Below the pieces are notes generated by a model. It was given only the letters and a program-made list of their open reading frames with translations. It was not told the DNA's origin and ran no database searches. From positions 87,414 through 151,413 of the forward strand of contig NZ_JAQTQD010000001.1 of assembly GCF_028712425.1 (NCBI RefSeq): 64,000 bases of DNA. Direction: 5' to 3'. Source of the DNA: Methanoregula sp. GTDB taxonomy: Archaea > Halobacteriota > Methanomicrobia > Methanomicrobiales > Methanospirillaceae. Positions 8,584-43,478 of the stretch are shown here, in pieces. A program made the translations under genes and the position numbers. Numbering within the stretch: position 1 is the stretch's first letter; the number at the start of each line of letters is the position of its first letter.

Positions 8584-8627
8584 GAACCACAATGCAATAG
8601 ATATTGGAACATCGAATGGGATGGACT

Positions 8628-9173
8628 ATGAGCAATGCAGAGAACGGGCAGGAGCCCCCGGAACAGGAGATATCGGACATGACTGCACAAAATGCGGGAT
8701 CCCCGGTGCCTGGAACTGCGGAAGCTGATGAACAGAAGGGAGCCTACGCAGAACTGAACGACCGGTTCCTGCGTCTTGCTGCCGATTTTGAGAATTTCAG
8801 GAAACGCAGTGAGCGGGAGCGGGCCCAGACCATTGCCCTTGCCAACGAGAGATTTGCCTGTGATATTCTCGAAGTTGCGGACAACATCGAGCGGGCACTG
8901 AAATCGGATGACGCCCACTTACGGGAGGGAATGCTCCAGATCCGGCAGCTCCTCTCTGCCCAGCTGCAACGCCACGGCGTCTGTCCCATAGAGTCGCTTA
9001 ACACATTGTTCGATCCGGAGGTGCATGAGGCAATTGCCCATGTGCCATCGGATGCCTGCACCGGAACCGTCATTGACGAAGTCTGCCGCGGGTACCGGAT
9101 GCATGACAAAGTAATCAGGTATGCAAAAGTAGCAGTATCCAAGGGAAATGAGAATAATCACAAGGAGGTCTGA
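8628..9173 (+). CDS. grpE: Nucleotide exchange factor GrpE
   Basis: GrpE releases ADP from DnaK and thereby resets the chaperone cycle. The protein has 181 residues from ATG 8628. The first 45 or so are acidic and disordered. A long helix follows with the signature [15 protein letters not shown] at about 52-66, and the C-terminal beta domain ends [15 protein letters not shown]. The start at 8628 is preferred over 8604 because GGGATGG sits just upstream, within the expected transcript. It is the first gene of an operon with dnaK only 5 bp downstream; the dnaK Shine-Dalgarno lies within the last grpE codons. Confidence 0.93.
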
Positions 9174-9178
9174 ATACA

Positions 9179-11047
9179 ATGGCAAATGAGAAGGTTCTGG
9201 GAATCGATCTGGGAACAACCAATTCCTGTATCTCGATCATGGAGGCCGGGAAACCTATTATCATCCCGAACTCCGAAGGCGGCCGGACAACCGCGTCGGT
9301 TGTCGCGTTCACCAAGGAAGGCGAACGCCTTGTTGGCAGCCTTGCAAAGAGACAGGCAGTGACCAATCCCCAGAGGACGATCCAGTCCATCAAGCGCAAG
9401 ATGGGGACGAGCGAGAAGGTGACCATTGACGGAAAGGGATACTCCCCCCAGGAGATCTCTGCAATGATCCTGCAGAAACTGAAGATCGATGCGGAAGCCT
9501 ACCTGGGCGAGAAGATCTCAAAAGCCGTTATCACCGTCCCGGCATACTTCAACGATGCGCAGCGGCAGGCAACCAAGGATGCCGGCCAGATCGCCGGGCT
9601 CGAAGTGCTCCGTATCATCAACGAACCGACTGCCAGCGCCCTTGCCTACGGCATTGACAAGGAAACCGATGCCACGATCCTCGTGTACGACCTTGGCGGC
9701 GGGACCTTCGATGTCTCAATCCTGACGCTTGGCGATGGCGTTTTCGAGGTCAAGTCAACAGCCGGCAACAACCACCTCGGTGGCGACGACTTTGACAAGC
9801 TGGTCCAGGATCACCTGATTGAGGAATTTAAGAGAAAGGAGGGCATCGATCTCCGCAACGATCCCTATGCCATGCAGCGGCTGCGCGATGCGGCGGAGAA
9901 CGCGAAGATCGAGCTCTCCCAGCGCCAGTCCACAAACATCAACCTCCCGTACATCACCACGGACGCAAGCGGTCCCAAGTTCCTTAACATCGATCTCACA
10001 CGGGCAAAGCTCGAGCAGTTGATCAGCAGCCTTGTCGAATCCACCATGGGCCCGGTCAAGCAGGCGCTCTCGGACGCCAAGCTGGAGCCCAAGGACATCG
10101 ACCATGTCCTGCTTGTAGGTGGTTCGACCCGCGTTCCGCTCGTGCAGGAGACTGTCAAGAAGCTCCTCGGAAAAGAACCCGACAAGGGCATCAATCCCGA
10201 TGAGTGTGTCGCCCTCGGTGCCGGGATCCAGGGAGCAGTCCTCACCGGTGAAGCAAAGGACATTGTCCTGCTGGATGTCACCCCGCTGACCCTGGGTATC
10301 GAGACGCTTGGGGGTATCGCCACAAAGCTCATCGAGCGAAACACCACCATCCCGACACGGAAGAGCCAGATCTTCTCGACTGCGGCCGATGGCCAGACCA
10401 GTGTCGAGATCCACGTTGTCCAGGGCGAGCGTGCGCTCGCAAAGGATAACTTCACGCTCGGGCGTTTCCAGCTGACCGGCATCCCGCCGGCACCCCGGGG
10501 CATCCCGCAGATCGAGGTCACGTTCGATATCGACTCCAACGGCATCATCCACGTCTCCGCAAAGGACATGGGTACCGGCAATCAGCAGGCCATCTCCATC
10601 AAGGGCGACCGCAAGCTTTCAGAAGAGGACATCAAGAAGGCGATGGACGCAGCAAAGCAGTTCGAGGCCGACGACAAGAAGAAGCGTGAGGAGATCGAGC
10701 TCAGAAACCAGGCTGACACAGCAGTCTTCACTGCCGAAAAGATGCTCAAAGAGAGTGGCGACAAGCTCGAGACGGCAGACAAGACGAAGATCGAAGAAGG
10801 CATTGCAGAAGTAAGGAAGGTTTTACCTGGTGAAGACCTCGAAGCGATCAAGAAGGCAATGGAATCCCTGACCGAAGCAGTCTATGCAGCAACCACGAAA
10901 ATTTACCAGAAGATGCAGGCCGAGCAGCAGGCAGCAGCACAACAGCAGGCCGGCGCTGCGGGAGGAGCCGGCGGAGAGGCTCCCGGGCAGGAGCCTAAGA
11001 CCGACGACAATGTGGTCAACGCAGACTATAAAGTGAAAGACGAGTGA
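9179..11047 (+). CDS. dnaK: Molecular chaperone DnaK (Hsp70)
   Basis: An ATP-driven chaperone that binds unfolded segments in the cytoplasm. It has 622 residues. The ATPase domain shows [11 protein letters not shown] at the N terminus, [17 protein letters not shown] and [12 protein letters not shown]. The linker and substrate domain begin near [16 protein letters not shown]. The helical lid is rich in Lys and Glu, and the tail is a Gln/Ala/Gly stretch ending in an acidic [10 protein letters not shown] very strong ribosome site AAGGAGGTC precedes the ATG. Archaeal dnaK genes are generally thought to come from bacteria; this one keeps the complete bacterial three-gene set. Confidence 0.98.
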
Positions 11048-11059
11048 AGTGATCAGGGA

Positions 11060-12193
11060 ATGAGTGCGGGCGACTACTACGACACCTTAGGTGTCCCGCG
11101 GAATGCTGACGAGAAGGAGATCAAGAAAGCCTACCGCAACCTTGCCCGCAAGTACCACCCCGATGTCTGCAAGGAGCCCGGAGCAGAGGAGAAGTTTAAG
11201 AAGATCAACGAGGCGTATAGCGTACTCTCCGATGCCCAGAAGAAGGCCCAGTACGACAACATGGGCCACGAGACCTTCACCAATGCATCAAAAGGCTCCT
11301 ACACCGGTGGAGGCAGCGGCTTTGGGAACGGCGGGTTCTACTCAGACTTCTCGGGTTTTGGGGATATCTTCGACTTCTTTGGCGGTGGCGGCCACCGGAG
11401 GTCCGGCCCGCAACCCGGTGCCGATCTCCTGATGCGGATCCAGATCCGGCTTGAGGACGCGGTTGCCGGCACCGACCGGGAGATCGAGGTGATGCATTCG
11501 GAGCCATGTGCAACCTGCAGCGGCTCCGGCAGCGAGACGAAACGATTGAATGTCTGCCCGCGGTGCGGCGGGAGCGGCCAGATGCGGCAGGCAACAAACT
11601 CCCCGTTCGGGCAGTTTGTCCGGATGTCTACCTGTACCCAGTGCGGCGGCAGGGGAAAGATCCCGGAGAAGACCTGCCATGAGTGCCACGGGTCCGGCCA
11701 TAAGCGTGTCAAGCGGAAGGTCTCGGTCCATATCCCGGCAGGGATTGACAGCGGCATGCGGCTCCGGATGGAAGGGTATGGCGAGGCAGGTGACTTTGGC
11801 GCGCAAAACGGGGACTTATTCCTCGAAGTCTATGTCATGCCCCACGAGCGCTTCATCCGTTCGGGCGACAATCTCGAGACGCTCATCGAGATCTCGCCGG
11901 CCCAGGCAGTTCTCGGCACAGATGTGGAGATCGAGACCATCGACAAGCGCCATATCGACATCAAGATCCCTGCCGGAGTGCAATACAACACGGCATTAAA
12001 AATTGCCGGTGAGGGGGTCAAACGACGCGGAAAACCCGGCGATCTTCTTGTCCGGGTGAAAATTGTCACCCCCAAATCTGTCAGCAGCGAACAGAAAGAA
12101 CTGTACCAGAAAATCATCGATCTTGAAGGCAAAGGTGGCGGTGTCGGGGGTTTCTTTTCCGGTATAATGGGAAAGAAGAAAGGGAAGAAGTAA
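11060..12193 (+). CDS. dnaJ: Chaperone co-factor DnaJ (Hsp40)
   Basis: DnaJ stimulates the DnaK ATPase and delivers substrates. It has 377 residues with the full type I layout. The J domain at about 5-70 has the HPD triad in KYHPDVCK. A Gly/Phe-rich linker runs to about 115. The zinc domain has four CxxCxGxG repeats: [24 protein letters not shown] and CHECHGSG. The C-terminal substrate domains follow, and the tail is KKKGKK. It lies 12 bp after dnaK and ends the operon; a T run is found about 20 bases after the stop. Confidence 0.97.
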
Positions 12194-12261
12194 AACCCTG
12201 ATACTCCACATACTTTTTTTCTGGCACACCTATTTGAGCGCCCGGGTACCATCTGATCAGG

Positions 12262-13230
12262 ATGAAGCTGCTCTTTGAGCTCTCGGGAGAGAACGCGACA
12301 CTCCCGTTTGCCGAGATCGATTGTATCGGCACCCTTACCGACAAAAGGCTCCAGGCAGCTGTTGCCGAATGCCCGGATCCGGATGCAACCCGTCGCCTTG
12401 CCATGACCCAGGTTGTCCTGGAATACCTTGGCGAATGTGATCCGGACCTTGTTTCATTCAAAAACCTGCTCAAAGACCTTGCCCTGGCAACCGACCTGCC
12501 TTTTGCCGGCCGGGCAAAGAAAGTCCACGGGGGATCGCAGGAACGAAACCCTGCATCGCAGCGCGAGTTCGAACGCCTTATCGGTACCATGATCGATGGC
12601 CCGGTCTCCCTGCTCCACCCAGATGTCGAGTACCGTGCCATCCTTTCCGAAGACCGCTGCTATTTTGGAAAAGTGCTGCACCGGATCGATCGCGGAGGAT
12701 ATGACCACCGGAACCCCGGCAAACGCGATTTCTTCCATCCAGGCGTGATGATGCCGCGGATGGCGCGGACTCTTGTCAATATCGCGTGTACCCGGGCGGG
12801 TGATACACTTCTTGACCCGTTCTGCGGGACCGGGGGCATTCTCATCGAGGCTGAACTCCTCGGCATGCACGCGATCGGCAGCGACTTCGATCCCTTCATG
12901 ATTGCCGGCAGCCGGCTGAACGCAAAGGATTCCGATCTTCTCACTGGTGACGCGACCTGCCTCCCGTTCCCGGATCATTCCATTGACAGCATCGTCACCG
13001 ACTTTCCCTATGGCCAGTCAGTGTGCATCCTCAAGGTCGACACCATGGACCGGCTGTACAGTGACGCGCTCTCGGAAATCTGCCGTGTGCTCCGGCCCGG
13101 TCGAAGGGCCGTAGTGGTCACCCACCGCGATATCTCTGCGATTGCTGCACAGCATATGACCATCCTGCAACAGCACAGCCAGCGTGTCCACAAGAGCCTG
13201 ACCCGCCGGGTGCTTGTCCTCACCAGGTAA
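12262..13230 (+). CDS. Trm11/Trm-G10-type tRNA (guanine-N2) methyltransferase
   Basis: Predicted to methylate the N2 of a guanosine in tRNA, probably G10, using S-adenosylmethionine. It has 322 residues. The N-terminal 160 residues match the NFLD/THUMP-like part of archaeal Trm-G10, ending in YFGKVLHRIDRGGYDHR and KRDFFHPGVMMPR. The C-terminal Rossmann domain shows motif I LLDPFCGTGGILIEAELLG, an acidic GSDFDP, and the catalytic motif as TDFPYGQS, where DPPY is commoner. It reads in the same direction as the chaperone operon but with a 68-bp gap that includes a T run. Target position is inferred from family membership only. Confidence 0.82.
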   Translation: MKLLFELSGENATLPFAEIDCIGTLTDKRLQAAVAECPDPDATRRLAMTQVVLEYLGECDPDLVSFKNLLKDLALATDLPFAGRAKKVHGGSQERNPASQREFERLIGTMIDGPVSLLHPDVEYRAILSEDRCYFGKVLHRIDRGGYDHRNPGKRDFFHPGVMMPRMARTLVNIACTRAGDTLLDPFCGTGGILIEAELLGMHAIGSDFDPFMIAGSRLNAKDSDLLTGDATCLPFPDHSIDSIVTDFPYGQSVCILKVDTMDRLYSDALSEICRVLRPGRRAVVVTHRDISAIAAQHMTILQQHSQRVHKSLTRRVLVLTR

Positions 13231-13262: not shown

Positions 13263-13979
13263 ATGTTACGTCAGATAGTATCACACGTTATGAAATACCA
13301 GTACCCGATCCTGATTTTGCTCCTCCTCTCACTGCTCTTCCTGTCTGTTCCTGCATCCGGTTATTCTCCGGACGCCGTTACTTTGTATGAACAGGGAACA
13401 GCATCGGTAGCTGCCGGCAACCTGTCCGACGCAATAACCGCATTCGACCAGGCTCTCCTGCTTGAGCCGGAGTATTACGAAGCCTGGGACGCCCGGGCTG
13501 ATGCCCTGAACCGTGACGGGCAGTTCTCCAGTGCCCTCGAATCCTCCTCCCGTGCCCTTGCCGTCAATTCCAGTTACCTGCCGGGCTGGATCAACCGGGG
13601 CCAGATCCTGTATAATCTCGGGTACGTATACGAGGACCAGATAAAAGATCCGGTGAAAGCAAACGAGTATTATCTTGAGCAGGTCCAGGCATTCGAGAAA
13701 GCGATTGTACTTGACCCGACAAATGCCGATGCCTGGTTCAACAAGGCATATGCGCTGGCCGGCCTGAAACGGTACGATGAAGCGATCGCAGCGTTCGACA
13801 AGGTAAAGGAGCTAAATCCCGCATATCCCAAGATTGACAAGAACCGCGAGATTGCCCGCCAGCTCCGGGATTCCGTCACGCCGTTCTATGTTACGTATGC
13901 ACCCGTGATCATCGGCATTGCCGCGATCATCATCGGGATCCTGTTCTGGGTCCTCTTCTTAAGGGAAAAAGAAGATTAA
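13263..13979 (+). CDS. Exported, membrane-anchored TPR protein
   Basis: A 238-residue protein with a signal peptide (residues about 10-34, ending VPASG), three or four tetratricopeptide units and a C-terminal transmembrane helix (FYVTYAPVIIGIAAIIIGIL) followed by a short charged tail. One unit contains an insertion (YEDQIKDPVKANEYYL). TPR domains bind other proteins, so it is likely an extracellular scaffold held to the membrane. ATG 13263 is the first start; ATG 13290 would give a more typical signal peptide. It sits 42 bp from the end of the giant convergent TPR gene, and its repeats resemble that gene's, but it is secreted while the giant protein is not. Confidence 0.78.
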   Translation: MLRQIVSHVMKYQYPILILLLLSLLFLSVPASGYSPDAVTLYEQGTASVAAGNLSDAITAFDQALLLEPEYYEAWDARADALNRDGQFSSALESSSRALAVNSSYLPGWINRGQILYNLGYVYEDQIKDPVKANEYYLEQVQAFEKAIVLDPTNADAWFNKAYALAGLKRYDEAIAAFDKVKELNPAYPKIDKNREIARQLRDSVTPFYVTYAPVIIGIAAIIIGILFWVLFLREKED

Positions 13980-14021: not shown

Positions 14022-17000
14022 TTACCGTCCCTTCTCATAACAGATCCGGGCTTCTTCGTGCTTCCCGATCTTTTCGAGAATGTCCCCGATATCATTCCAG
14101 CATTCCTTGCGCATAGGATCAATTTCAAGCGCATGCTTGAAGACTGCAAGGGCATCCTGATACAGCTCCAGCTCCTGGAGCGCCCGGCCCTTGTGGATAT
14201 ACGCGTCCACGAAGTCCGGCTGAATTTGGAGCATGGCATCGAATGCCTCAACCGCATCCTGGTACCGTTTCATCGCGATGAGGGCACTCCCTCTGGTAAA
14301 GTAGGCAATGGAAAATGTCGGATCAATCATGAGAGCCCGGTCATAGTGTTCGAGCGCCTCCTCGAATTTCTGCTGGGCTGAGAGAACCATCCCCTGCCGT
14401 GTCCAGGCCTCAGTATTCTCCGGGTCGAGCGCAAGACCGCGTTCGTAGGCCTGCTCGGCATCGGCATATTTCCCAAGATCGTACAGGACATTCCCCTTGC
14501 CCATCCACGCCTCGGCAAGATTCCCGTCATACTCGATCGCCTTGTCGAATGCCTCAATGGCATCACGGTACATCCCCAGCTCGGCAAGGGCGATACCCTT
14601 GTGGGCAAAGACCCGAGCAAGGGGCTCGATCTCCAGGGCCCGGTCATAGGACTGCACCGCATCGCGGTACTGTTCAAGGGCCGCATAGGCAAGTCCTTTC
14701 TGGTCATGGAGGATCGCCTTCTTCGGCATAATCTCCAGAGCATGGTCAAGCGCAGTAATTGCTCCATCATAGTTGCCCTGGTAGGCCTCCGCCCTTCCCT
14801 TCCCGGCGAGTGCCTGCCAGCAGGACGGGTTGATGTCGATGGCCCGGTCAAAGGCGGTTATGGCATCGGCATGGTTACCAAGAGCGATCAGGGCACGGCC
14901 TTTCTCGAAATGTGCGCCGGCATTACCGGGAGCAAGAACCAGAACCTTGTCAAAGGAGGCAATGGCTTCCCGGAACATGCCGGTATATACGAGCGATCTC
15001 CCGCGTTCGAAGAGTGCTTCGGCATAGTCGGACCGTATCCCGAGTGCTGTATTAAACGCAGCGATTGCCTCTTCATGCTGCCCGGTGCGGGCAAGGGCGA
15101 CACCTTTGTTGTGCCATGCCTCGGAATACCGGCTGTTGACAGCAAGTGCCTGGTCGAAGACCGGGATTGCCTCGGCATACCGCTTCTGTTCCAGGAGTGC
15201 AAGCCCCTTGTAGAACAGGGCTTCGGGGTATTCCGGCTCTACGGTCAGCGCCTTGTTGAAGGCCTCCACGGCCTGATCATGACGGGAGAGATGGATAAGA
15301 GTAATGCCCCGGAAAAGATGCGCTGGTGCATACTCTGGCCTGAGGCCAAGTGCATGGTCATAGTCCTGGATCGCCCGGTCGTACTGGTTGAGGCTGGCCT
15401 GCGAGATGCCGCGGTACAACCAGGCTTCAGCTAAGTCCTCTTTTCCGGCAAGTGCCTTGTCATACGCCGTGATGGCGTCGTTATGCATCCCGAGCATCGC
15501 AAGCGCACGGCCTTTCTGGTAATTAGCTTCAACGCAGGCAGGCTTCTGTGCCAGGGCCGCCTCAAAATACCGTATGGCCTCATGGTATTTCCCAAGTTTT
15601 AAGTAGGATACTCCAAGATGGTATGCGGCACGGGCATCCTTACTGTCGATTCCCAGTGCCTTTGTGAAAAATCTGACGGCATCCTGGTCCTTTCCAAGCG
15701 AAGAGAGGGCAATGCCTTTTCCGGTCCAGAGATGGGCATGGTTAGGCCGTATCTTCAGGGCAAGGTCGAACGCCTGGATGGCCTCGTCGTACTGTTCCAG
15801 CCGCAGGAGGGAGGTGCCCTTGTGATACAGGGCATCCACGTTCTTCTGCTGAAGGGCAAGCGCATTGTCGAACGCAATAACTGCTTCGCGAAACATGCCC
15901 ATGTGGAAGAGTGACCGGCCCTTGTCGTTGTATGCAGATACATAGTCCGGCCGGAACTCCAGTGCCTTGTTGAAAGCCTCAATGGCATCCTCATATCCTC
16001 CTGATGCGAAGATGGCACTTCCTTTGAAATACCATGCTTCGGCATTCGATGGGTCGATGGCTATGGCACGTACATAGGATTCCACGGCATCGTTGTATTT
16101 CCCAAGGGCAAACAGGGACAATCCCCGGTGGACCCATCCTTCAACTGAACCTGGTTGCCGTTCGATTACCCGATCGAATGCCTCGATGGCATCCGGGTGC
16201 CGGCCGGTCGTAGCAAGCGAGAGCCCCTTGTGATAGGCAGCCTGCGCACTGCCCGGGTCAAGGTCGAGAGCTTTGTTGAATGCAACAATGGCATCATCAT
16301 GCCGCCCCAGGTGCGCGAGCGCAATCCCTTTATCATAGAACACTTCCGCATTGCCTGCATCAGTCCCGAGCAGCTTGTCATACGTCTTGACAGCCTCGCG
16401 GTACATCCCGAGGGCCGAGAGTGCCCTGCCTTTGTCGTATACCGCATCGGAACAGGCAGGATCGATCTCAAGTGCACGGTCAAAGATCTTGATGGCTTCT
16501 TCGTATCGTTCCAGGCGGATGAGTGCAACTCCCTTGCGGTGCAGCGAGGGGACATGCATCGGCTGGAGGGCCAGCGCCCGGTTGTACGCGTCAATCGTCT
16601 CCTTTGGATCGTCAAGGCTGTCAAATGACCTGGCCCGCATTTCGTGGGCATCGAAATAATCCGGCCTGACCCGGATTGCCTGGTCGAACGCATGGATGGC
16701 ATCCTTATGACGTTTCAGGCGCGAAAGGGCGAGACCGTCTTCGTACCAGGCAGTAGCGTTGTCGGGCGCCAGGGCAAGGAGACGCTCAAACGACTCCACC
16801 GCTTCGGCATCCTTCCCGAGGGCAGCATATGCAAGAGCGCTGTAGTACAGCGCGTCATGGTTTCCACCGTCTTCTTCAAGCGCCTTGTCAAACGCTGCAA
16901 TAGCCTCTTCGTACCTGCGAAGGTCATAGAGCGCCATCCCTTTTTCATGCCAGGCTGCTGCATGCTGCGGGAGATAACCGATGACCCGGTCAAAGGATTC

Positions 17001-20000
17001 AATGGCCCGGTCAAACGACTTCAGGGAATAATATGCCCTGCCCCTCCCGAGGAATGCCTCAGCATCGTCCGGACGCAGTTCGAGTACTTTGTCAAAGGCA
17101 GGAACCGCCTCCTCTGCCCTGCCCAGGTGGAAAAGGGAGATGGCCTTGTGGTACCAGATATCCGGGTCCGTTTCGTTCAGGGCAAGGGCCTTCCCGAATG
17201 ACAGGACTGCATCGTCATACCGCCCAATCAGCATGAGCGAGAGTCCCCGGAGGAACGGGGGTTCGAACCGGTCCGGCAGTCTGTCTGCGGACTGGGCGAA
17301 CACAACCTCCGCTTCCTCATGGCGTTCGAGATGGGCAAGGGCAATCCCCTTTTCCAGCAGGAACTCCCCATCGGAAGGCACAAGGGAGAGGGCATGATCG
17401 TAGACCCGGATTGCCATCTCGAACTGCCCGAGACGCGACCGTACCTTCCCGAGCGAAAGGAGGATTGCCGGGTTGTCCGGCTCGGTCCTGCGGGCTTGTT
17501 CGAAGGCTTCCATAGCCTCCTCATCGTTTTCAAGGTGCTCCAGGGCAAGGCCCTTGTGGTACCATGCCATCGCATGGTCGGGCACTACTGCTATCGTGCG
17601 GTCGAACGAAGAAACCGCCTCAGGATACTGCGTAAGACATTCTGATGAGAGGCCTTCATAGTAGTGGGCGTCGGTATACCCGGCGTCCAGTGCTGCTGCG
17701 GCTGTGAACGCATCCCGTGCGTCCGCATATTGCACAAGCGCGAACAGGGCAAGACCAAGAGCATAGTGCGCTTCCTTTCTTTCCCTGTCGCACTCAATCG
17801 CCGTGCGGAGTTCGGTAACCGCGGCTTCCCACTGCTCCTGCGAAGAGAGGACAAGGCCTTTCTCATAGTGTGCAGCAAACGAATGAGGGTCAAGCCGGAT
17901 TGCCTGATTGAACGATGCTATGGCTTCTGGTGCATTCCCGAGATGCCGGTATGCAAGGCCCTGGTGATACCAGGCATCGAAAATTCCCGGATCAAGGTCG
18001 AGAGCAGCACCCAGCGATGAGGCTGCCTCTTCGTATTGCTGGAGCGAAAAGAGCGAGAGGCCTTTTTGGCAGAGTGTGGGGACAAACGATCCATTGATGG
18101 CGAGCGCCCCATCGAATGCCGAAACCGCGTCCGTGTGCTCCCCGAGGCGGGCAAGGGCCAGCCCCTTGTCATAAAACGCGTTCATGAACCGGGGATCGAT
18201 TGCGGTCGTATTCTCGAATGCCTGGATAGCGTCTGTGTCCCTCCCGAGGTGGACCAGCGCAACTCCCTTGTCGTACCAGGCATTGGCATATTTCCGGTTG
18301 ATCGCGATAGCCCGGTCATAAGATGCAACCGCATCTTCAAACTGTTTCATCTCCGCAAGGGCAATGCCGCGGTCGTACCACCCGTTGGCATTCTCCGGTT
18401 TGAGATCGAGCGAACGGGTGAGCGCTTCGATTGCCGGCGCAAACTTACCCAGTGAGAGCAGGGAACTTCCTTTCCGTAACCATGCTCCCGCACAGGTCTC
18501 ATCGACCCCGATGACCCGGTCAAAACAGGGGATTGCCTCCTCGTACCGTGCCAGGTCGGAGAGCGACCGGCCTTTTAAGTACCAGCAGGTGATGCTGTCA
18601 GGATTGAGGGCCAGGGCCCGGTCATAAGCTTCGAGCGACTCCTCGTACCGCCCGAGCTCGTAGAGTGTCCTGCCTTTCAGTTCCCATACGGTAAGGTCAT
18701 TGTTCTCTATGGCAAGCGAAGCGTCAATCGCAGCGAGCGCCTCCTCATACCGCAGGAGGCGGAAGAGCGCCCTGCCCTTGTGGAACAGGACATCAGGTCG
18801 TTCCGGGAATGTCTCCAGTATCCGGTCAAATGTTTTTAATGCCTGCTCGTTTCTGCCAAGGCTTTCATAGGAGAGCCCGGTCTGGTACACAGCATCTGTT
18901 ATGCTGCCATCGTGTGTCAGTGCCTGCTTGTAGGACCGGATTGCTTTCTCGTACTTCCCCTGCGCCTGCAGGGCAAGGCCCTTGCGGTAATGCGCCTGGG
19001 CATGATCGGGAGCGTACTGGATCGTGTAGTCGAACGAAGAGACAGCCTCTGTGTGTTTCGCGAGCCGGAGATACGCATATCCCCGGAGGTATGCGGCCTC
19101 ATACCGCGTAGAGTCGAGTTCAAGCGTGCGGGTAAACGCGGCAATTGCTTCCTCGTCCCTTCCCAGTTCCGCCAGCGACTGGCCCCGGCCGAAAGCAGCG
19201 GAAACGGACATGGGATCAAGCGCTGACGTTTTCTCAAAAGCCTCGGCTGCAGCGGCGTGATAGTTCAGTTTCTGGAGGGAAAGGCCCTTGTTGAGCCAGG
19301 CCGGGGCATTGTCCGGGACAAGCGCGATCGTTTTATTGAATGAATCCAGCGCCTCCTGCCACCGGGCCAGCTGCATGAGAGAAGTCCCGCGGCAGTACCA
19401 GAGTTCGCCATTATCCACGCCAAGGGAAGCGGCCGCATCGAATGCAGCTACGGCATCCTCATGACGGTTAAGAGCTGCAAGGGCGAAACCCTTATGGTAC
19501 GCGGCATCCCGCATGTCAGGTTGCAATTCCAGCGCCCGGTCAAATGCGGCAACGGCGTCCGCATGTTTTGCAAGCGAACTGAGCGCACGCCCTTTATGGT
19601 ACCATGCAACTGCGCAGGGCTCCTCAAGCGAGAGTGTAGTCTCAAACGCGGAAAGGGCATCCTCGTAGAGATCTTTGGCCGCAAGGGCCTGCCCTTTGTA
19701 ATACCAGCCCTTCACATGCTTCGGGTCGACAGCGGTCAGTCTGTCGAACATCCCGTATGCATCTTCCCACCGGCCCAGCCGGAGGTATGCTTTTCCGCGG
19801 AAGAGCAGGACGGTCCGGTCCTTTGCTTTCCGTTTCAGTGCCTTACCGAGATACTCTACCGTCTCCTTGTACCGCGCAAGGCGGTAAAGCGAATAGCCTT
19901 TGCAGGTGAGGAGTTCGGCATTTGTGGCATCGTTCTCCAGCGCATGGTCCAGTTCAATGACCGCGTCCTCGTAGCGCCTGAGCTGTACAAGGGAGATTCC

Positions 20001-23000
20001 CCGGCCGCGGCGGGCCCGGTCGTTCTCCGCATCCCGTGCGATCACGCCCTCGAATGCAACGACTGCCTCTTCATGGCGGCCAAGCCGGGCAAGTGACTCC
20101 CCCTTTGCCAGCAGCGCCCGTGTCTCGCCGGCATCAAGCGCAAGGGCACGGTCCGCCGAAAGGATGACCTCCTCGTCCCGCCCGAGTTTTAAGAAGCAGA
20201 GCGCCTGTTCGGTATGGACTGCGGGAGTGTTCATTCCCTTATCGATGGCATTGGTGAATGCAGCCAGCGCGTCTTCGAACCGGTCGAGTTTTACAAGGGA
20301 CAGGCCTTTCGCGTACAGGATCTCCGGATCGTCCGGCTTCTGCTTAAGATACCCGTCAAATGCTTCCAGCGCCTGAGCATATTTTTCCAGGACAACGAGT
20401 GCTTTTCCCTTCTCGTGCCAGGCACCGGTATTTGCGGGATTGATCTCAATGACCCGGTTAAATGCAACAACCGCCTCTTCGTACTCGCGGACATCCCGGT
20501 GAGCGAATCCCTTGTAGAGGAATGCCCGTTCGCAATCGGGGGCGATCCGGTTGACCCTGGCATATACCGGGATCGCCTCTTTTGCCGATCCAAGAAGGTC
20601 AAGGGACCGGGCCAAACCGTATGTTGCATGAAGGTCGCGTGGCACCGCAGCAAGCACCTGTTCGAAGGCTGTGGCTGCCTCGCGATACCTGCCCAGCGCA
20701 AAGAGGGCCCGGCCCTTCTCCTGGAATGCTTCGGGGAAGTCCGGCATCAGGCGGTTTGCCTCTTCGAATGCAACGGCAGCCTCGGCAAGTTTCTTCTGCC
20801 GGAAGAGGGCAAGGCCCATGTAGTGGAACGCCTCGCCGAAATCCGGCACGATCTTTATCGCCTGCTCAAACGCCAGAACGGCATCGCTGTCGTTCCCGAG
20901 GTTCAAACAGGCCCTGCCCTTGTAGAACCACGTGTGGGGATTGTGCGCCTCCAGCTCGAGGGCCTTGTCGTACGAGGCGAGTGCATCAGAGTAGCGCTCG
21001 ACAGCAAAGAGGCAGAATCCCTGGATCAGCCACGCATTGGCAATCTTCTGGTTCCTCTCCAGGGTTTTTGTCAGGTCTTCGATTGCCTCACTGAACCTGC
21101 CCAGTTCGGCAAGCGACAGGCCCTTGTGGTACAGCGCATCCTGGTTGTCCTTATCCCGTGCAAGTGCTGCAGAGAACGCTGCCTCTGCCTCGTCATGCCT
21201 TCCCAGTGCGGCAAGGGCAAGACCTTTCTGGTACGGGTATTCTGTTTTTTGCGCATCGATCGCAAGGGCAGCATCGAATGCACTGATGGCATCCTCGTAA
21301 CTCTCCAACCGCATCAGGGCAAGGCCTTTCTGGTACAGGACAGCAGGGTCATCCGGCAGGATCTCAAGGGCGATATTGAAGGATAAGACCGCTTCCTCCT
21401 GCATCCCCGTAGCCATCAGGGCCAGTCCCTTGTTGTAAAACGCCGGCACATAGTTCGGGATCAGGGAGAGTGACTGGTCAAAGGCCTGGATTGCTTCAAG
21501 GTGCCGGCCAAGCCTTGCAAGCGTAAGGCCGCGTTCGAAATGCGACCGTGCATTCGCAGGATCGATCTCGATGGCACGGTCGAACGCTGCCAGTGCTTCG
21601 GGGACCCGGTCGAGTTCCGCAAGTGCACTCCCCTTCCGGTGCCATGCCTGGGCCAGTTCCGGCCGAATGGCGATGGCAACATCTGCCGCCCCCAGTGCGT
21701 CGGCATGCCTTCCGATACTGGCAAGTGCAATTGCTTTCTGGAGTGCTGCATCCGACATCTGCGGGTCGGCTGAAAGCGCCCCGTCAAACGATTCCAGGGA
21801 TTCCCGGTACCGCCCGAGCGAGTTTAAGGCAAGGCCCCGCTGGTACTGGGCCGGAGCGTACCGGGGAGAAAGGGCGATGCTCTGGTCCAGCACCGGGATT
21901 GCATCGTTCTCCCGTTCGAGTCGTACCAGCGCAAGGCCGTGCAAATAGAAAGCCATGGCATTTGCGGGCGTGAGTGCTTCGGTGCGCTCGAACTCCGGAA
22001 TGGCTTTCTCGTACTGCGAGAGTTCCATGAGCGAGAATCCCTTGTGGTAATGGATATCCGCAGTGTCGGGATCGAGCCTGAGCGCGAGGTCATACTCTTC
22101 AACGGCTTCCTCATGCCGTTTCAGGTCAGCAAGGGCCCGGGCCTTGTAGTAATGGGCCTGCAAATTGTTTGCGTTATCGGCTATGGTCTTGTCGAAATCA
22201 TGGATGGCTTCGATGAATTTTCCGAGGTTGTACTCGGCAATCCCCATCCGGAGGCGGGCATCGGTGTACCGAGGTTTCAGCTGCAGGGTCTTGTCAAAAG
22301 CAAAGGCCGCGTCGGCATGCCGTCCCAGGTCTGCATAGACCTTCCCCTTGTGGTAGAATGCGAGAGCATTCCCCGGATCGTAGATGAGGGATTTGTCAAA
22401 CGATTCAAGCGCTTCCTCAAACCGCCGGCTCTTTTCGAGCGCGATCCCACGGTTGAAATGTCCCGGGGCATTGCTGCCGTCCCGCGCAAGGTTGCGGTCG
22501 AATGCCTCGATGGCACCGGTGTAGTCACCGGTTTTTAAGAGCGCATAACCGAAGTAATAGAACGCTTCCGTATAGGCTGGCTCGATCTCTATTGCACGTT
22601 TCAGTGCCGCAATCGCATCCGGGTATCTCCCGATCTCGATAAGCGATTTACCCTTATTGTACCATGCCGGGGCGGAGTCCGGAAGGATCTGGAGGGTCTT
22701 GTCAAAACTTCCGATAGCATCACGGTGATCGCCAAGGACAGCAAGTGCGAGCCCCTTGTGGAACTGCGCATCGCCGTTCTTCGGATCGATCTCCAGCAGG
22801 ATCTCAAAGACATGGATAGCGCCCTCATGCCGGTTGACCTTTTCAAGAGCGAGACCTTTATACCAGAACGCCTCGATACTCCGCTGGTTTAAGGAAATGG
22901 CATTGTCAAAGGCATCGATGGCATCCTGGTACCGGGTGAGGTCAAAGAATGCCTTGCCCTGCCGTATCCAGCCGGGCTCATTGTCCGGATCGATCTTCAG

Positions 23001-26000
23001 GGACTTGCCGTACGCAAGGATGGCATCCTCGGTCTTTCCCAGCTGCTGCAGGGCATCGCCTTTCCTCATCCAGATGTCGCAGAGTGCCGGGTTGATCTCA
23101 AGCGCCCGCGAGTACGCGCCAACCGCGTCCTGGATCTTGTTAAGGTCCATGAGGGCGTTCCCTTTCCGGATCCATGCATCGGTAAAACCGGAATTGATCT
23201 CCAAGGCCTTGCTGTAAGCCCCGATTGCTTCCTGTTTCAGCGACTGGCTTGCAAGGGCATCGCCTTTCTGCATCCAGACATCGATGAGTGTCGGGTTGAG
23301 AGAAAGGATCCGGTCATCTGTCTCGACAACCTCAGAAAAACGTTCGAGGACCATGAGCGAACGGGCCCGGGCTGTCATAGCATCGATATGTGTCGGGTTT
23401 CCGGCAAGGCACTTATCGAAGAGCGGGACGGCCTCAGCATGCTGACCAATGGCTGCAAGGGCAATTCCATGGTACAGGTATGCGTCAAGAAGCGATGGGT
23501 CGAGCTCCGTTGCGCGGGAAAACTCCGGGATCGCGTTTTTAAACTGCTTGTCCTGCAGGTATGCAAGCCCCAGGTAATAGTGGGTAGCAGGGTTGTCGGG
23601 ATCGCGTTTCAGGGCGCTTAAAAACGCCGTGATTGCTTCCGGGTAACGTTCGCGCTGGACAAGGGCTATCCCCTTGAAGTGGAATGCCTGACCCTGCGTG
23701 GGGTCAAGCGCAATCGCATTGTCGAACGCCCGGATCGCGTCATCGTACCGTTCGCGCCCGGCATAGGCCACGCCCAGGTAATAGGCGCCGGAAGCATTCT
23801 CCGGTTCGAGGGACTGGGCGCTTTCGAAAGCCTGGATGGCCTCATCGAAACGCTCCCGCTGGGTCAGGGCCAGGCCTTTCTGGTACAGGATCTTCGGGTC
23901 ATCGGGAGAGAGCTCCAGCGCCTGGTCGTATGAAACCACTGCCTCGAGAGGCTTGCCCAGTTTCAGGAGCGCGTTGCCCCGTTCGAAGAATGCCCGGGCG
24001 CACCGTCGGTTGATCTCAAGCGCCTTGTCAAAGGAGCGGACCGCCTCCTCGAACCTCCCGAGGGCAGAGAGGGCAAGACCCTTGTAGCACCAGCCGTACA
24101 CGTCCTTTGCATTCTCATCCAGCGCACGGTTGAGGGTACTGACAGCCTCATCGTGTCGTTCAAGGGTGAAGAGGACAATCCCCTTCCGCACGTGGGCCTC
24201 GGCAAGTTTCGGGTTCAGCGCGATTACCTTGTCAAACGCAGGGAGTGCTTCTTCCAGTTGGCCGATGTGCGCAAGCGAGATGCCCATGTACAGCCAGCCG
24301 TTGACAAGCGCCGGGTTCTGTTCGAGGGCCTCGTGGAATTCCTGCACTGCCTCCGCGTAGCGCAGGAGGTGGAAGAGGGCAATACCTTTTTCGTACCGGG
24401 CATTGGTATTTTCCGGTGAGATGGCGAGGACCGCATCGAACGCAACCACCGCTTCCATGAACCGGTTGAGCCGCCCGAGCGTCAGCCCGCGGTGGTAGAG
24501 CGAGAGCGTATGGGTCGGGTCGATAACTGCCGCCTGTTCGAACGCCGTGATTGCATCGGAAAACCGTTCCAGCTGGACAAGGGTCAGGCCCTTCTGGTAA
24601 TAGGCATTGACATACTTGGGATTGGTCGCAATTGCCTGGTCGAATGCCTGAAGTGCATCCCCGAATTTCCCGACCCGTATAAGAGCTGCGCCCTTATCGA
24701 ACGCTGCCTGGGCAAACCCGGGCTTTAATGCAAGGCTCTCGTCAAATGCTTCGATTGCTTCATCGAACCTGCCGATCTTCACCAGCTGCAGGCCTTTCTG
24801 GTGGAATGCCTTTGCATTATTCGGGTCGAACGCAACGGTCCGCTCGAACTCCTGCACGGCATCCTCGGTCCTGCCGAGTTTCGAGAGTGCAAACCCCTTG
24901 TGGTAGATGGCATCGGAAAGCCCCGGGTTGATCCGCAGGGCATGGTCGTACGATGCAACCGCCTCGGAAAAACGGCCCAGGCTCGCGTACGCAACGCCCT
25001 GCTGGAACGCGGCTGAAGCACACGATGGATCGACCTGAAGCGCTCCATCAAAAGATTCGATTGCTTCCTTGTTGCGTCCGAGACGCGCCTGTGCAATACC
25101 CCGGAAGTACAACGAGCCGGCATGGTTCTGCCCAAGAGCAAGGCGGCGGTTGAAGGACTCGAGCGCCTCCTCGTACCGGCTCAGGTTGACGCAGGCGATC
25201 CCGCGGCGGTACCACGCCTCCTTGTTCCCGGGCTCCGGCTCAAGGGTTGCATCGAAATCCTGCACCGCTTCCCGGTACTGCTTCAGCCGGTAATGCGCAA
25301 GCCCGCGGTGGTAGAGTGCCCCGGCATTTCCAGGATGGATCTCAAGGTTCCGGGTGAATGCCTCGACTGCATCGTCATTCTGCCGGGTCTCGACACCAGC
25401 AAGCCCGAGGTAGTACCATGCATCGGAGAGATCGGGATTGATCGCTGTGGCCTGCCGGAGGGCATCGAGTGCTTCATCATACCTGCCCAGCTTGAAGAGG
25501 GACATGCCCCGGATCGCCCAGATGTCCGCATGATCGGGTTCCTGCGCCAGAAATTTTTCTGCGGACTGGGCTGCAAATTCATTCTGGTCCTGCCTGGAGA
25601 GGATGAAACTCCGGTAATACCAGACCCAGATATCTTCGGGATCGAGTTCCGCGGCCCGGTTGAATGCCGACAGCGCATCGTCGAGGTTCCCGAGCTCGTA
25701 GAGCGAGATGCCCTTGTTGTAATATGCCCGTGCATATCCCGGCACGATCTCGATTGCCTTGTTGTGAGAATAGATGGCTTCCTGGTGCCGGCCAAGGTCC
25801 GCAAGGGCGATGCCCTTGTTGTAGTAGACCTTCGCGTGCCGCGGGTCGATCATCAGGGCATGGTCGTACGCGGAGATGGCATCCGTGAACCGGCCCAGTT
25901 CGTACAGGGCGATGCCTTTTAAGATCCATGCCTCGGCATTGTCGTACCGGATCGCAAGGAGGTGGTCGCAGGCCTCAAGGGCTTCCTCGTTCCTGCCGAT

Positions 26001-26258
26001 CTGCGCAAGCGTGGCAGCCTTGTTGTACCAGGCATTGGGATCGGACGGTTCGATGGAGACTGCCATGTCGTACGCGGCAATCGCGTCCTCGAACTTCCCG
26101 AGATCGTATAAAGCAATGCCCTTGAAATAGTGGGCCTTTGCAAGCCGGGGGTAAAGGGCAAGCCCCCGGTCGAACATGACAATGGCCTCCTCGTACCGGC
26201 CAAGGTCATAGAGTTCAATGCCCTGCCGCAACAATGCTTCTGCATCACTCTTGTTCAT
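14022..26258 (-). CDS. Giant protein of about 120 tandem tetratricopeptide repeats (4078 aa)
   Basis: One uninterrupted frame of 4078 residues, about 450 kDa. It has no signal peptide, no membrane helix and no other domain seen. From residue 6 to the end it is a chain of 34-residue TPR units on the pattern AWYxKGxALxxLGRYEEAxxAFDxALxxxP; 4078/34 gives about 120 units. Units are clearly related but not identical, for example KGIALYELGRFTDAISAYDH near the N terminus and KGNVLYDLGKYADAEQAYER near the C terminus. The last unit ends EEARICYEKGR. TPR solenoids bind peptides and proteins, so a cytoplasmic scaffold is likely. The ATG at 26258 has GGGGC about 11 bases before it. The gene has no co-directional partner close by: downstream is the convergent small TPR gene, upstream a hairpin-rich non-coding block. 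Confidence 0.9.
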   Translation of the reverse strand: MNKSDAEALLRQGIELYDLGRYEEAIVMFDRGLALYPRLAKAHYFKGIALYDLGKFEDAIAAYDMAVSIEPSDPNAWYNKAATLAQIGRNEEALEACDHLLAIRYDNAEAWILKGIALYELGRFTDAISAYDHALMIDPRHAKVYYNKGIALADLGRHQEAIYSHNKAIEIVPGYARAYYNKGISLYELGNLDDALSAFNRAAELDPEDIWVWYYRSFILSRQDQNEFAAQSAEKFLAQEPDHADIWAIRGMSLFKLGRYDEALDALRQATAINPDLSDAWYYLGLAGVETRQNDDAVEAFTRNLEIHPGNAGALYHRGLAHYRLKQYREAVQDFDATLEPEPGNKEAWYRRGIACVNLSRYEEALESFNRRLALGQNHAGSLYFRGIAQARLGRNKEAIESFDGALQVDPSCASAAFQQGVAYASLGRFSEAVASYDHALRINPGLSDAIYHKGFALSKLGRTEDAVQEFERTVAFDPNNAKAFHQKGLQLVKIGRFDEAIEAFDESLALKPGFAQAAFDKGAALIRVGKFGDALQAFDQAIATNPKYVNAYYQKGLTLVQLERFSDAITAFEQAAVIDPTHTLSLYHRGLTLGRLNRFMEAVVAFDAVLAISPENTNARYEKGIALFHLLRYAEAVQEFHEALEQNPALVNGWLYMGISLAHIGQLEEALPAFDKVIALNPKLAEAHVRKGIVLFTLERHDEAVSTLNRALDENAKDVYGWCYKGLALSALGRFEEAVRSFDKALEINRRCARAFFERGNALLKLGKPLEAVVSYDQALELSPDDPKILYQKGLALTQRERFDEAIQAFESAQSLEPENASGAYYLGVAYAGRERYDDAIRAFDNAIALDPTQGQAFHFKGIALVQRERYPEAITAFLSALKRDPDNPATHYYLGLAYLQDKQFKNAIPEFSRATELDPSLLDAYLYHGIALAAIGQHAEAVPLFDKCLAGNPTHIDAMTARARSLMVLERFSEVVETDDRILSLNPTLIDVWMQKGDALASQSLKQEAIGAYSKALEINSGFTDAWIRKGNALMDLNKIQDAVGAYSRALEINPALCDIWMRKGDALQQLGKTEDAILAYGKSLKIDPDNEPGWIRQGKAFFDLTRYQDAIDAFDNAISLNQRSIEAFWYKGLALEKVNRHEGAIHVFEILLEIDPKNGDAQFHKGLALAVLGDHRDAIGSFDKTLQILPDSAPAWYNKGKSLIEIGRYPDAIAALKRAIEIEPAYTEAFYYFGYALLKTGDYTGAIEAFDRNLARDGSNAPGHFNRGIALEKSRRFEEALESFDKSLIYDPGNALAFYHKGKVYADLGRHADAAFAFDKTLQLKPRYTDARLRMGIAEYNLGKFIEAIHDFDKTIADNANNLQAHYYKARALADLKRHEEAVEEYDLALRLDPDTADIHYHKGFSLMELSQYEKAIPEFERTEALTPANAMAFYLHGLALVRLERENDAIPVLDQSIALSPRYAPAQYQRGLALNSLGRYRESLESFDGALSADPQMSDAALQKAIALASIGRHADALGAADVAIAIRPELAQAWHRKGSALAELDRVPEALAAFDRAIEIDPANARSHFERGLTLARLGRHLEAIQAFDQSLSLIPNYVPAFYNKGLALMATGMQEEAVLSFNIALEILPDDPAVLYQKGLALMRLESYEDAISAFDAALAIDAQKTEYPYQKGLALAALGRHDEAEAAFSAALARDKDNQDALYHKGLSLAELGRFSEAIEDLTKTLERNQKIANAWLIQGFCLFAVERYSDALASYDKALELEAHNPHTWFYKGRACLNLGNDSDAVLAFEQAIKIVPDFGEAFHYMGLALFRQKKLAEAAVAFEEANRLMPDFPEAFQEKGRALFALGRYREAATAFEQVLAAVPRDLHATYGLARSLDLLGSAKEAIPVYARVNRIAPDCERAFLYKGFAHRDVREYEEAVVAFNRVIEINPANTGAWHEKGKALVVLEKYAQALEAFDGYLKQKPDDPEILYAKGLSLVKLDRFEDALAAFTNAIDKGMNTPAVHTEQALCFLKLGRDEEVILSADRALALDAGETRALLAKGESLARLGRHEEAVVAFEGVIARDAENDRARRGRGISLVQLRRYEDAVIELDHALENDATNAELLTCKGYSLYRLARYKETVEYLGKALKRKAKDRTVLLFRGKAYLRLGRWEDAYGMFDRLTAVDPKHVKGWYYKGQALAAKDLYEDALSAFETTLSLEEPCAVAWYHKGRALSSLAKHADAVAAFDRALELQPDMRDAAYHKGFALAALNRHEDAVAAFDAAASLGVDNGELWYCRGTSLMQLARWQEALDSFNKTIALVPDNAPAWLNKGLSLQKLNYHAAAAEAFEKTSALDPMSVSAAFGRGQSLAELGRDEEAIAAFTRTLELDSTRYEAAYLRGYAYLRLAKHTEAVSSFDYTIQYAPDHAQAHYRKGLALQAQGKYEKAIRSYKQALTHDGSITDAVYQTGLSYESLGRNEQALKTFDRILETFPERPDVLFHKGRALFRLLRYEEALAAIDASLAIENNDLTVWELKGRTLYELGRYEESLEAYDRALALNPDSITCWYLKGRSLSDLARYEEAIPCFDRVIGVDETCAGAWLRKGSSLLSLGKFAPAIEALTRSLDLKPENANGWYDRGIALAEMKQFEDAVASYDRAIAINRKYANAWYDKGVALVHLGRDTDAIQAFENTTAIDPRFMNAFYDKGLALARLGEHTDAVSAFDGALAINGSFVPTLCQKGLSLFSLQQYEEAASSLGAALDLDPGIFDAWYHQGLAYRHLGNAPEAIASFNQAIRLDPHSFAAHYEKGLVLSSQEQWEAAVTELRTAIECDRERKEAHYALGLALFALVQYADARDAFTAAAALDAGYTDAHYYEGLSSECLTQYPEAVSSFDRTIAVVPDHAMAWYHKGLALEHLENDEEAMEAFEQARRTEPDNPAILLSLGKVRSRLGQFEMAIRVYDHALSLVPSDGEFLLEKGIALAHLERHEEAEVVFAQSADRLPDRFEPPFLRGLSLMLIGRYDDAVLSFGKALALNETDPDIWYHKAISLFHLGRAEEAVPAFDKVLELRPDDAEAFLGRGRAYYSLKSFDRAIESFDRVIGYLPQHAAAWHEKGMALYDLRRYEEAIAAFDKALEEDGGNHDALYYSALAYAALGKDAEAVESFERLLALAPDNATAWYEDGLALSRLKRHKDAIHAFDQAIRVRPDYFDAHEMRARSFDSLDDPKETIDAYNRALALQPMHVPSLHRKGVALIRLERYEEAIKIFDRALEIDPACSDAVYDKGRALSALGMYREAVKTYDKLLGTDAGNAEVFYDKGIALAHLGRHDDAIVAFNKALDLDPGSAQAAYHKGLSLATTGRHPDAIEAFDRVIERQPGSVEGWVHRGLSLFALGKYNDAVESYVRAIAIDPSNAEAWYFKGSAIFASGGYEDAIEAFNKALEFRPDYVSAYNDKGRSLFHMGMFREAVIAFDNALALQQKNVDALYHKGTSLLRLEQYDEAIQAFDLALKIRPNHAHLWTGKGIALSSLGKDQDAVRFFTKALGIDSKDARAAYHLGVSYLKLGKYHEAIRYFEAALAQKPACVEANYQKGRALAMLGMHNDAITAYDKALAGKEDLAEAWLYRGISQASLNQYDRAIQDYDHALGLRPEYAPAHLFRGITLIHLSRHDQAVEAFNKALTVEPEYPEALFYKGLALLEQKRYAEAIPVFDQALAVNSRYSEAWHNKGVALARTGQHEEAIAAFNTALGIRSDYAEALFERGRSLVYTGMFREAIASFDKVLVLAPGNAGAHFEKGRALIALGNHADAITAFDRAIDINPSCWQALAGKGRAEAYQGNYDGAITALDHALEIMPKKAILHDQKGLAYAALEQYRDAVQSYDRALEIEPLARVFAHKGIALAELGMYRDAIEAFDKAIEYDGNLAEAWMGKGNVLYDLGKYADAEQAYERGLALDPENTEAWTRQGMVLSAQQKFEEALEHYDRALMIDPTFSIAYFTRGSALIAMKRYQDAVEAFDAMLQIQPDFVDAYIHKGRALQELELYQDALAVFKHALEIDPMRKECWNDIGDILEKIGKHEEARICYEKGR

Positions 26259-42382: not shown

Positions 42383-43455
42383 AGGTTGCTCTAATCACAA
42401 ATTATTGGAAGAACAGTGATGGTGGCGGTATCAAGACTTTTCTTGTTAATTTTGTGCAAACTTTGAAGGATGTGGGAACAGATGTTTCCGTAGTTTTCAG
42501 AGACGGCTATGATCCGGAGCAATTCAATGGTGGGAGAAATAAAATTGCATTCTCTTTCAATTGTTTCTGGTACTTATGGAAAATTAAACCAGATGTCATT
42601 CACACTCAAGAAACATGGTACTGTCTCCTGCCAGGTGTAATCTACAAGAAAATTTTTGGATGCAAGTTAATCCATACCTTCCATACCGAACCTGATAAAA
42701 GCTTACAATTATTTGCAAAGACCTTCTTTCAGATTCTCCTGAATACATGTGATTGTGTGACATTTGTTTCAATGAGATTACAAGAGCGAATTATTGAAGT
42801 TGACAGGCTCTCATTCCAAAATACTGCAATTACCTATGCGGGAGTTCCTGCAATTACTGTTTCAGACTACCAAGTAAAGGAATTTAAAAAACAATTTGGT
42901 ATTAGTGATGATTCGATTATTCTTGCAGCAATTGGTATGACGGCTCTTTCCTACAAAGCGGAAGGACTAAAGGTTCTACTTCGGGCCATCCAATTGCTAA
43001 AAGAATCACATCCTGATATTGTACTCATCGTTACAAGAGAGGGAAAATATTCAGATGATGTGAAGGCATTTGCCCACGAGATTGGTTTGGAGAGACATGT
43101 AATTTTTACGGGGAACATCGAGAATCCCTTTATTCCATTGAAGATGAGTAAGATGTATACTCATATAACGTTAGGCGATGGGTTGCCAATAGCATTGTTA
43201 GAAGCGATGTCAATGGGAAAACCTATTATCGCAACACCAATTGCTGGTATCCCAGAAGCGATAGAAAGTGGTACCAATGGGTTTTTGGTAGAACCGAATC
43301 CCGAAAAAATTGCTGAAAAAATTGATTTTCTTCTTCAGAACCCCGAAACATGTGAAAAAATATCTCAAAATGCTCATTACACTGCAAAAAACAAATTTTC
43401 ATGGGAAAATGCAACAAAGAGATTTATATTATTATACCATGGAGAGTGCAGATAG
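42379..43455 (+). CDS. Family 4 glycosyltransferase
   Basis: A 358-residue GT-B glycosyltransferase. The acceptor domain begins MKVALITNYWKNSDGGGIKTFLVNF; the donor domain has IGMTALSYKAEGLKVLLRA, GDGLPIALLEAMSMGKPI (the Glu-containing donor motif) and ATPIAGIPEAIESGTNGFLV. It is distinct enough from its upstream neighbour to use a different acceptor. It is the last of a run of genes joined by overlaps or very short gaps. Confidence 0.9.
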   Translation: MKVALITNYWKNSDGGGIKTFLVNFVQTLKDVGTDVSVVFRDGYDPEQFNGGRNKIAFSFNCFWYLWKIKPDVIHTQETWYCLLPGVIYKKIFGCKLIHTFHTEPDKSLQLFAKTFFQILLNTCDCVTFVSMRLQERIIEVDRLSFQNTAITYAGVPAITVSDYQVKEFKKQFGISDDSIILAAIGMTALSYKAEGLKVLLRAIQLLKESHPDIVLIVTREGKYSDDVKAFAHEIGLERHVIFTGNIENPFIPLKMSKMYTHITLGDGLPIALLEAMSMGKPIIATPIAGIPEAIESGTNGFLVEPNPEKIAEKIDFLLQNPETCEKISQNAHYTAKNKFSWENATKRFILLYHGECR

Positions 43456-43478
43456 ATTATAAATTCGCCGTGATTTGT

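Follow-up and report, generated by a model that had tools for sequence, protein, structure and literature searches.

The locus and its giant TPR gene

The window (the whole 64,000-nt stretch of Methanoregula DNA analyzed here) contains a gene that begins with ATG and runs for 4078 codons without an internal stop (Table 1). An earlier, sequence-only reading had described the product as an uninterrupted protein of about 120 TPR units, and our analysis bears this out. Residue autocorrelation reached 0.31 at lags of 34, 68, 102 and 136, and was no higher than 0.14 at other lags. The 34-residue register shows zero insertions or deletions from the start to residue 3876. Segmentation gave exactly 120 units, each of 34 residues except unit 114, which has 33, and the truncated last unit or helix. 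Of the four main Methanoregula groups, three share the short unit 114. Pfam TPR profiles matched N-terminal, middle and C-terminal pieces of the protein with E < 1e-130, and among the families listed in these searches there was no catalytic domain, as that reading had also proposed. The protein has a calculated mass of 454 kDa and a pI of 5.3. GC3 and codon usage of the gene resemble those of the adjacent DnaK and DnaJ genes (r 0.93).

Table 1. Giant TPR gene, its subregions and other features of the window
Feature	Position	Strand	Description or basis
Giant TPR protein gene	14022..26258	-	4078 aa, 120 TPR units of 34 residues
Conserved head	25533..26246	-	units 1-7, residues 5-242; conservation in 25 orthologues
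Length-variable middle	17067..24104	-	units 22-90; unit alignment, site of 8-unit indels between species
Unit 114	14622..14720	-	sole 33-residue unit in the window protein (segmentation)
Conserved tail	14025..14720	-	units 114-120, residues 3847-4078; across most of its length, 6-13 residues of each unit invariant
Convergent 238-aa protein	13263..13979	+	signal-like N-terminus, TPRs, C-terminal membrane segment
GrpE-DnaK-DnaJ genes, then UPF0020-type methyltransferase	8604-13230	+	
630-aa ORF	43401-45293	+	probable foreign island

The repeat is a 34-residue helix-turn-helix that scores above the TPR profile cut-off. For units 1–24, fold prediction gave 48 helices with a mean pLDDT of 94.3. The predicted fold has, among its best full-domain Foldseek matches, the TPRs of O-GlcNAc transferase (6eou) and an array of consensus TPRs (CTPR; 9qhb), with target TM scores of 0.78 and 0.74. 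The prediction and these matches agree with a superhelix of that kind, in which a turn would take 7–8 units. Near-identical units, which the sequence-only reading had not seen either, are absent among the 120; the closest pair is alike at 20 of 34 residues. With no signal found, the earlier picture of a cytoplasmic solenoid of about 15 turns is supported.

The convergent neighbor had been called a small secreted TPR protein. Its orientation, signal-like start and TPRs agree with that description, but because of the C-terminal membrane segment ‘membrane-anchored’ fits better than ‘secreted’. The gene adjoins the giant gene in most, not all, relatives. The order GrpE-DnaK-DnaJ-methyltransferase beside the giant gene is kept in many genomes of Methanoregula and the sister genus g8, while the chaperone genes and the 238-aa gene are both missing from this place in G034 and G068–G071. 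The nearby chaperone genes raised the possibility of an Hsp70/Hsp90 TPR co-chaperone. Such proteins have a two-carboxylate clamp, in which one unit carries Lys at position 5 and Asn at position 9 of helix A and the next two units supply partner residues. This pair was not found in units 1–8. We withhold the co-chaperone label because the head has no clamp residues and the neighbors are not constant, synteny being lost in several relatives. Elsewhere in the window, the 630-aa ORF has a GC of 0.315 and a GC3 of 0.277, far under its surroundings, and a codon usage unlike that of neighboring genes; it is probably a foreign island.

Orthologues and purifying selection

A pattern scan recovered full-length relatives of the giant TPR protein in two Methanoregula MAGs. 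Among 108 genomes of the family, collinear orthologues are present in most Methanoregula (g1) and in g8, and they are intact in closed genomes. Since orthologues are present in closed genomes, we reject an assembly artefact, including a fusion of several genes. The N-terminal 272 residues have no comparable match beyond g1 and g8 among 232 genomes of the order. G058, a fairly complete Methanoregula genome, gave no match in either the family or the order-wide search. In the single-contig genome G065, the orthologue (L067) is broken into two frames by a frameshift that is either real or from sequencing.

The nearest orthologue, in the 2.82-Mb closed genome G035, also counts 120 units exactly, and its amino acids are 93% identical to those of the window protein. 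Between the two genes, dN is 0.039 and dS is 0.474, a ratio of ∼0.08, and every turn has dN well below dS. By this measure the gene is under purifying selection. The ORF product is thus one real, conserved, unusually long pure-TPR protein.

Unit number changes in steps of eight

Orthologous genes were extracted whole, segmented into units and aligned unit by unit. Genes with Ns (G045, 134 units), an internal scaffold gap (G040) or a frameshift (G065) were left out of the count, as were the incomplete ones of G017, G044, G047, G056 and G059. In 21 of the 25 complete, gap-free orthologues the number of units is a multiple of 8 (112, 120, 128, 136 or 144). The remaining four have 121, 121 (both from g8), 151 and 159 units. 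Single- and two-contig genomes alone give 112 (G068), 120 (G034, G035) and 128 (G016, G069, G070, G071). In close pairs the difference amounts to exactly 8 or 16 units and sits at a single place (G057/G000, G068/G071, G062/G043, G062/G067 and G037/G038). All gaps in the unit alignment are of 8, 16, 24 or 32 units, or are accounted for by 7-unit events, of which there are two (G037/G038 clade; G010/G011). An erratic unit count, which would have pointed to an artefact, is therefore not what relatives show; the count is stepped by 8. This stepped unit number is the notable discovery of the analysis.

The steps fall in the middle of the protein. Unit indels are absent from the first 20 and the last 30 units of the unit-level alignment. 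Across the 25 orthologues, head units 1–7 contain 9–21 invariant residues each, and the number falls to 2 in unit 8. Inner-face residues of units 1–5 are about 91–100% identical. Together with the conserved tail (Table 1), this is the pattern that a partner-binding head and tail with a spacer between them would produce. A molecular ruler of fixed absolute length, one of the roles suggested earlier, is unsupported: species differ in unit number, from 112 to 159, and what they conserve instead is both ends and a register of 8n units.

Block duplications behind the steps

Each protein was scanned for mutually similar unit blocks at any lag, with shuffled unit orders as the null. Strong block matches appeared only at lags 8, 16 and 24, plus lag 15 (8 + 7) in the G037/G038/G045 clade, and shuffled orders gave zero at any lag. 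The frameshifted G065 contributes one more match, of two units at lag 16. In DNA, 8-unit copies lie exactly 816 bp apart, with identity up to 0.97. In G000 numbering, blocks start at unit 17/18 and 66/67 in the G062 group, at 38–44 in G034, G048 and G055, at 73 in G042, at 74 in G037/G038 and at 82 in G069–G071. Clades carrying different block starts are well separated on the tree, with good support. Parsimony on raw unit counts suffered from an unreliable root and was set aside in favor of founder blocks. These number ∼6, later copy changes at an existing site not being independent.

The independent events are thus few, about six founders plus the two of 7 units, and might simply have happened to be 8 units long. 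This is barely credible. Were sizes of 1–16 equally likely, six multiples of 8 out of six would have a probability of 4e-6; at 1/8 each, six or more out of eight would have a probability of 9e-5. Control arrays (below) favor small sizes, which makes chance still less likely.

It is also conceivable that 8-unit blocks went into the array when it first formed, long ago, so that the steps are relics of a few old events under no present constraint. Absolute counts in multiples of 8 and the clustering of length states on the tree would fit such an origin. Yet several of the 8-unit duplications are young (DNA identity 0.77–0.97), each restricted to one clade, and we regard common ancestry alone as quite improbable. 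The young duplications also bear on the earlier view that the array is old, kept under selection and not freshly amplified. For this species the view stands, but relatives carry recent block duplications, nearly all of them of 8n units. In the window protein itself, identity between units is not raised at lag 8, which rules out a strong 8-unit sequence super-repeat there that could steer recombination.

Control TPR arrays

Other giant TPR arrays of the same genera and order expand at lags of 1–2 units (102–204 bp). In a control family from g8 (L080–L083), lag 8 appears only among all lags 1–8 in one amplified region. In another family, controls with frames of 3923 aa (L097) and 6719 aa (L098/L099) show lags of 1–2. 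Because control arrays expand by 1–2 units, the eight-unit rule is not general to TPR DNA; it is specific to the window protein's family.

Several of these arrays are themselves unusual. L080–L083 form a second giant TPR family of the sister genus, ∼2450–2530 aa long, in which an acidic proline-rich linker joins two arrays. L085, L087 and L089 come from Methanoregula and represent a TPR protein that reaches 3032 aa; its near-identical repeats are amplified by 1–2 units each time. L098/L099 (G108:C6), from another Methanomicrobiales family, is a frame made almost entirely of TPRs that exceeds the window protein in length and has lag-1 duplications close to its N-terminus.

The controls help in weighing a mutational bias, that is, DNA recombining preferentially over 816 bp with no need for selection on register. 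An existing 8-unit tandem duplication can indeed pass to 16 or 24 units by homologous exchange (G037, G038, G067), and the breakpoints of most blocks lie close together within the 34-residue unit, at its positions 12–20. But founder duplications arose at ∼6 different registers in different clades, similarity in the window protein is not raised at lag 8, and TPR arrays elsewhere in these genomes grow by 102–204 bp. A bias of this kind is an unlikely cause of the steps.

Turn geometry and periodicity along the array

Consensus TPRs have eight repeats per superhelical turn (PMC7885266), and the TPR superhelix has been described with 7–8 repeats per turn and a pitch of ∼72 Å (PMC4191447). By analogy, eight units would make one turn in the window protein, and 120 units at the consensus TPR pitch would span a calculated ∼108 nm. 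Adding or removing a whole turn leaves other orientations unchanged; therefore only whole-turn changes would persist. The steps thus likely reflect superhelical register.

Spectral analysis of the array gave related periods. Averaged over the alignment, net charge per unit has its strongest peak at 8.25 units (p ∼0.001 in a 7.5–8.5 band chosen in advance on the basis of the indels, as one of about a dozen series tested). Conservation of the outer helix B likewise peaks at 8.25 units (p 0.012), while alignment-wide conservation of the inner face has no period near 8 (p 0.76). The charge period is weaker in the window protein alone (p 0.02). These data lend moderate support to an eight-unit turn, with the peak at 8.25 rather than 8 and with old block ancestry as a potential contributor. 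Covariation of charge pairs between units 8 apart is not above that at other lags, leaving direct turn-to-turn contact unsupported.

A period in net charge and outer conservation that the inner face lacks might mean that one side of the rod is special. Many copies could then line up laterally, or on a linear partner, as a filament or sheet whose lattice, rather than the two ends, demands whole turns. Both periodic signals (net charge and outer helix-B conservation), with none on the inner face, would suit this arrangement, but conservation is strongest at both ends and, within the head, on its inner face, not over the whole outer side. Lateral assembly as the source of the steps is doubtful.

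A proposed two-ended scaffold under selection for register

The reading we prefer, with a probability of roughly 60%, is that of a two-ended superhelical scaffold in which whole-turn register is selected rather than absolute length. The gene product would be one continuous right-handed TPR superhelix of ∼15 turns with 8 units per turn, forming a rod of ∼100 nm if its pitch equals that of consensus TPR arrays. The groove of the head (units 1–7) and the tail (last 7 units) may bind fixed partners, as their conservation suggests, with the middle acting as a spacer. Unequal recombination would keep inserting and deleting blocks of units. Only whole-turn changes would keep head, tail and outer surface correctly oriented, so that almost only 8-unit changes would survive. 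We infer that selection on register, not mutation, produces the steps. Counting against the register reading are the four proteins with 121, 121, 151 and 159 units, the fact that DNA alone would make repeat changes 8n wherever such a duplication already exists, and the lack of the gene in the fairly complete genome of G058.

More tentatively, and at slightly less than even odds, the protein may belong to a new kind of intracellular scaffold in archaea: one chain forming a superhelical rod of ∼100–140 nm that evolves in whole-turn quanta because selection acts on azimuthal register, either between the two conserved ends or along one face. It would then be a natural example in which comparing genomes is enough to tell how many repeats make a superhelical turn. 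In either case, unit number in this conserved protein (112–159) is stepped in eights, as many repeats as consensus TPRs need for one turn. If the register reading is true, selection acts on how a solenoid twists, and genome sequences provide a direct way to test superhelical geometry. The protein also points to a structural element so far unseen in this genus of methanogens.

Comparison with known systems

We found no earlier description of such a protein in the open-access papers searched, a set that omits most subscription journals. A recent review of alpha-solenoids gives human TPR proteins of 19 and 28 units as examples of repeat number, and describes archaeal TPR functions as little known (PMC11514114).

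CTPR arrays resemble the window protein in being pure stacks of 34-residue TPRs and are matched by its predicted fold (9qhb); they take eight units per turn (PMC7885266). However, they consist of designed identical repeats, up to 26 (PMC8944806), whereas the window protein has 120 diverged natural units, conserved ends and inherited steps in length that probably are whole turns. The TPR domain of O-GlcNAc transferase is likewise a long unbroken natural TPR superhelix (6eou), but the matched domain has far fewer units (a 343-residue chain) and is joined to a glycosyltransferase domain. Identity with O-GlcNAc transferase is ruled out, as TPRs run to the final residues of the ORF and no glycosyltransferase domain is among the families listed for it.

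Among giant repeat proteins, the A-band part of titin is also described as a giant modular scaffold with higher-order super-repeats (PMC10665226). It differs in being a muscle protein of Ig/FnIII domains in which sequence super-repeats are present. Nebulin grew mainly by seven domains at once, for which its analysts see a functional or structural constraint as the likely cause; their study also reports that repeat arrays grow in the middle (PMC1553488). Like the giant TPR family, it is thus a giant repeat protein growing by blocks of a fixed number, seven there and eight here. Its fold is unrelated, and it keeps a sequence super-repeat, which at 8 units is absent from the window protein. By this analogy, the giant TPR protein is an alpha-solenoid counterpart of nebulin's block growth.
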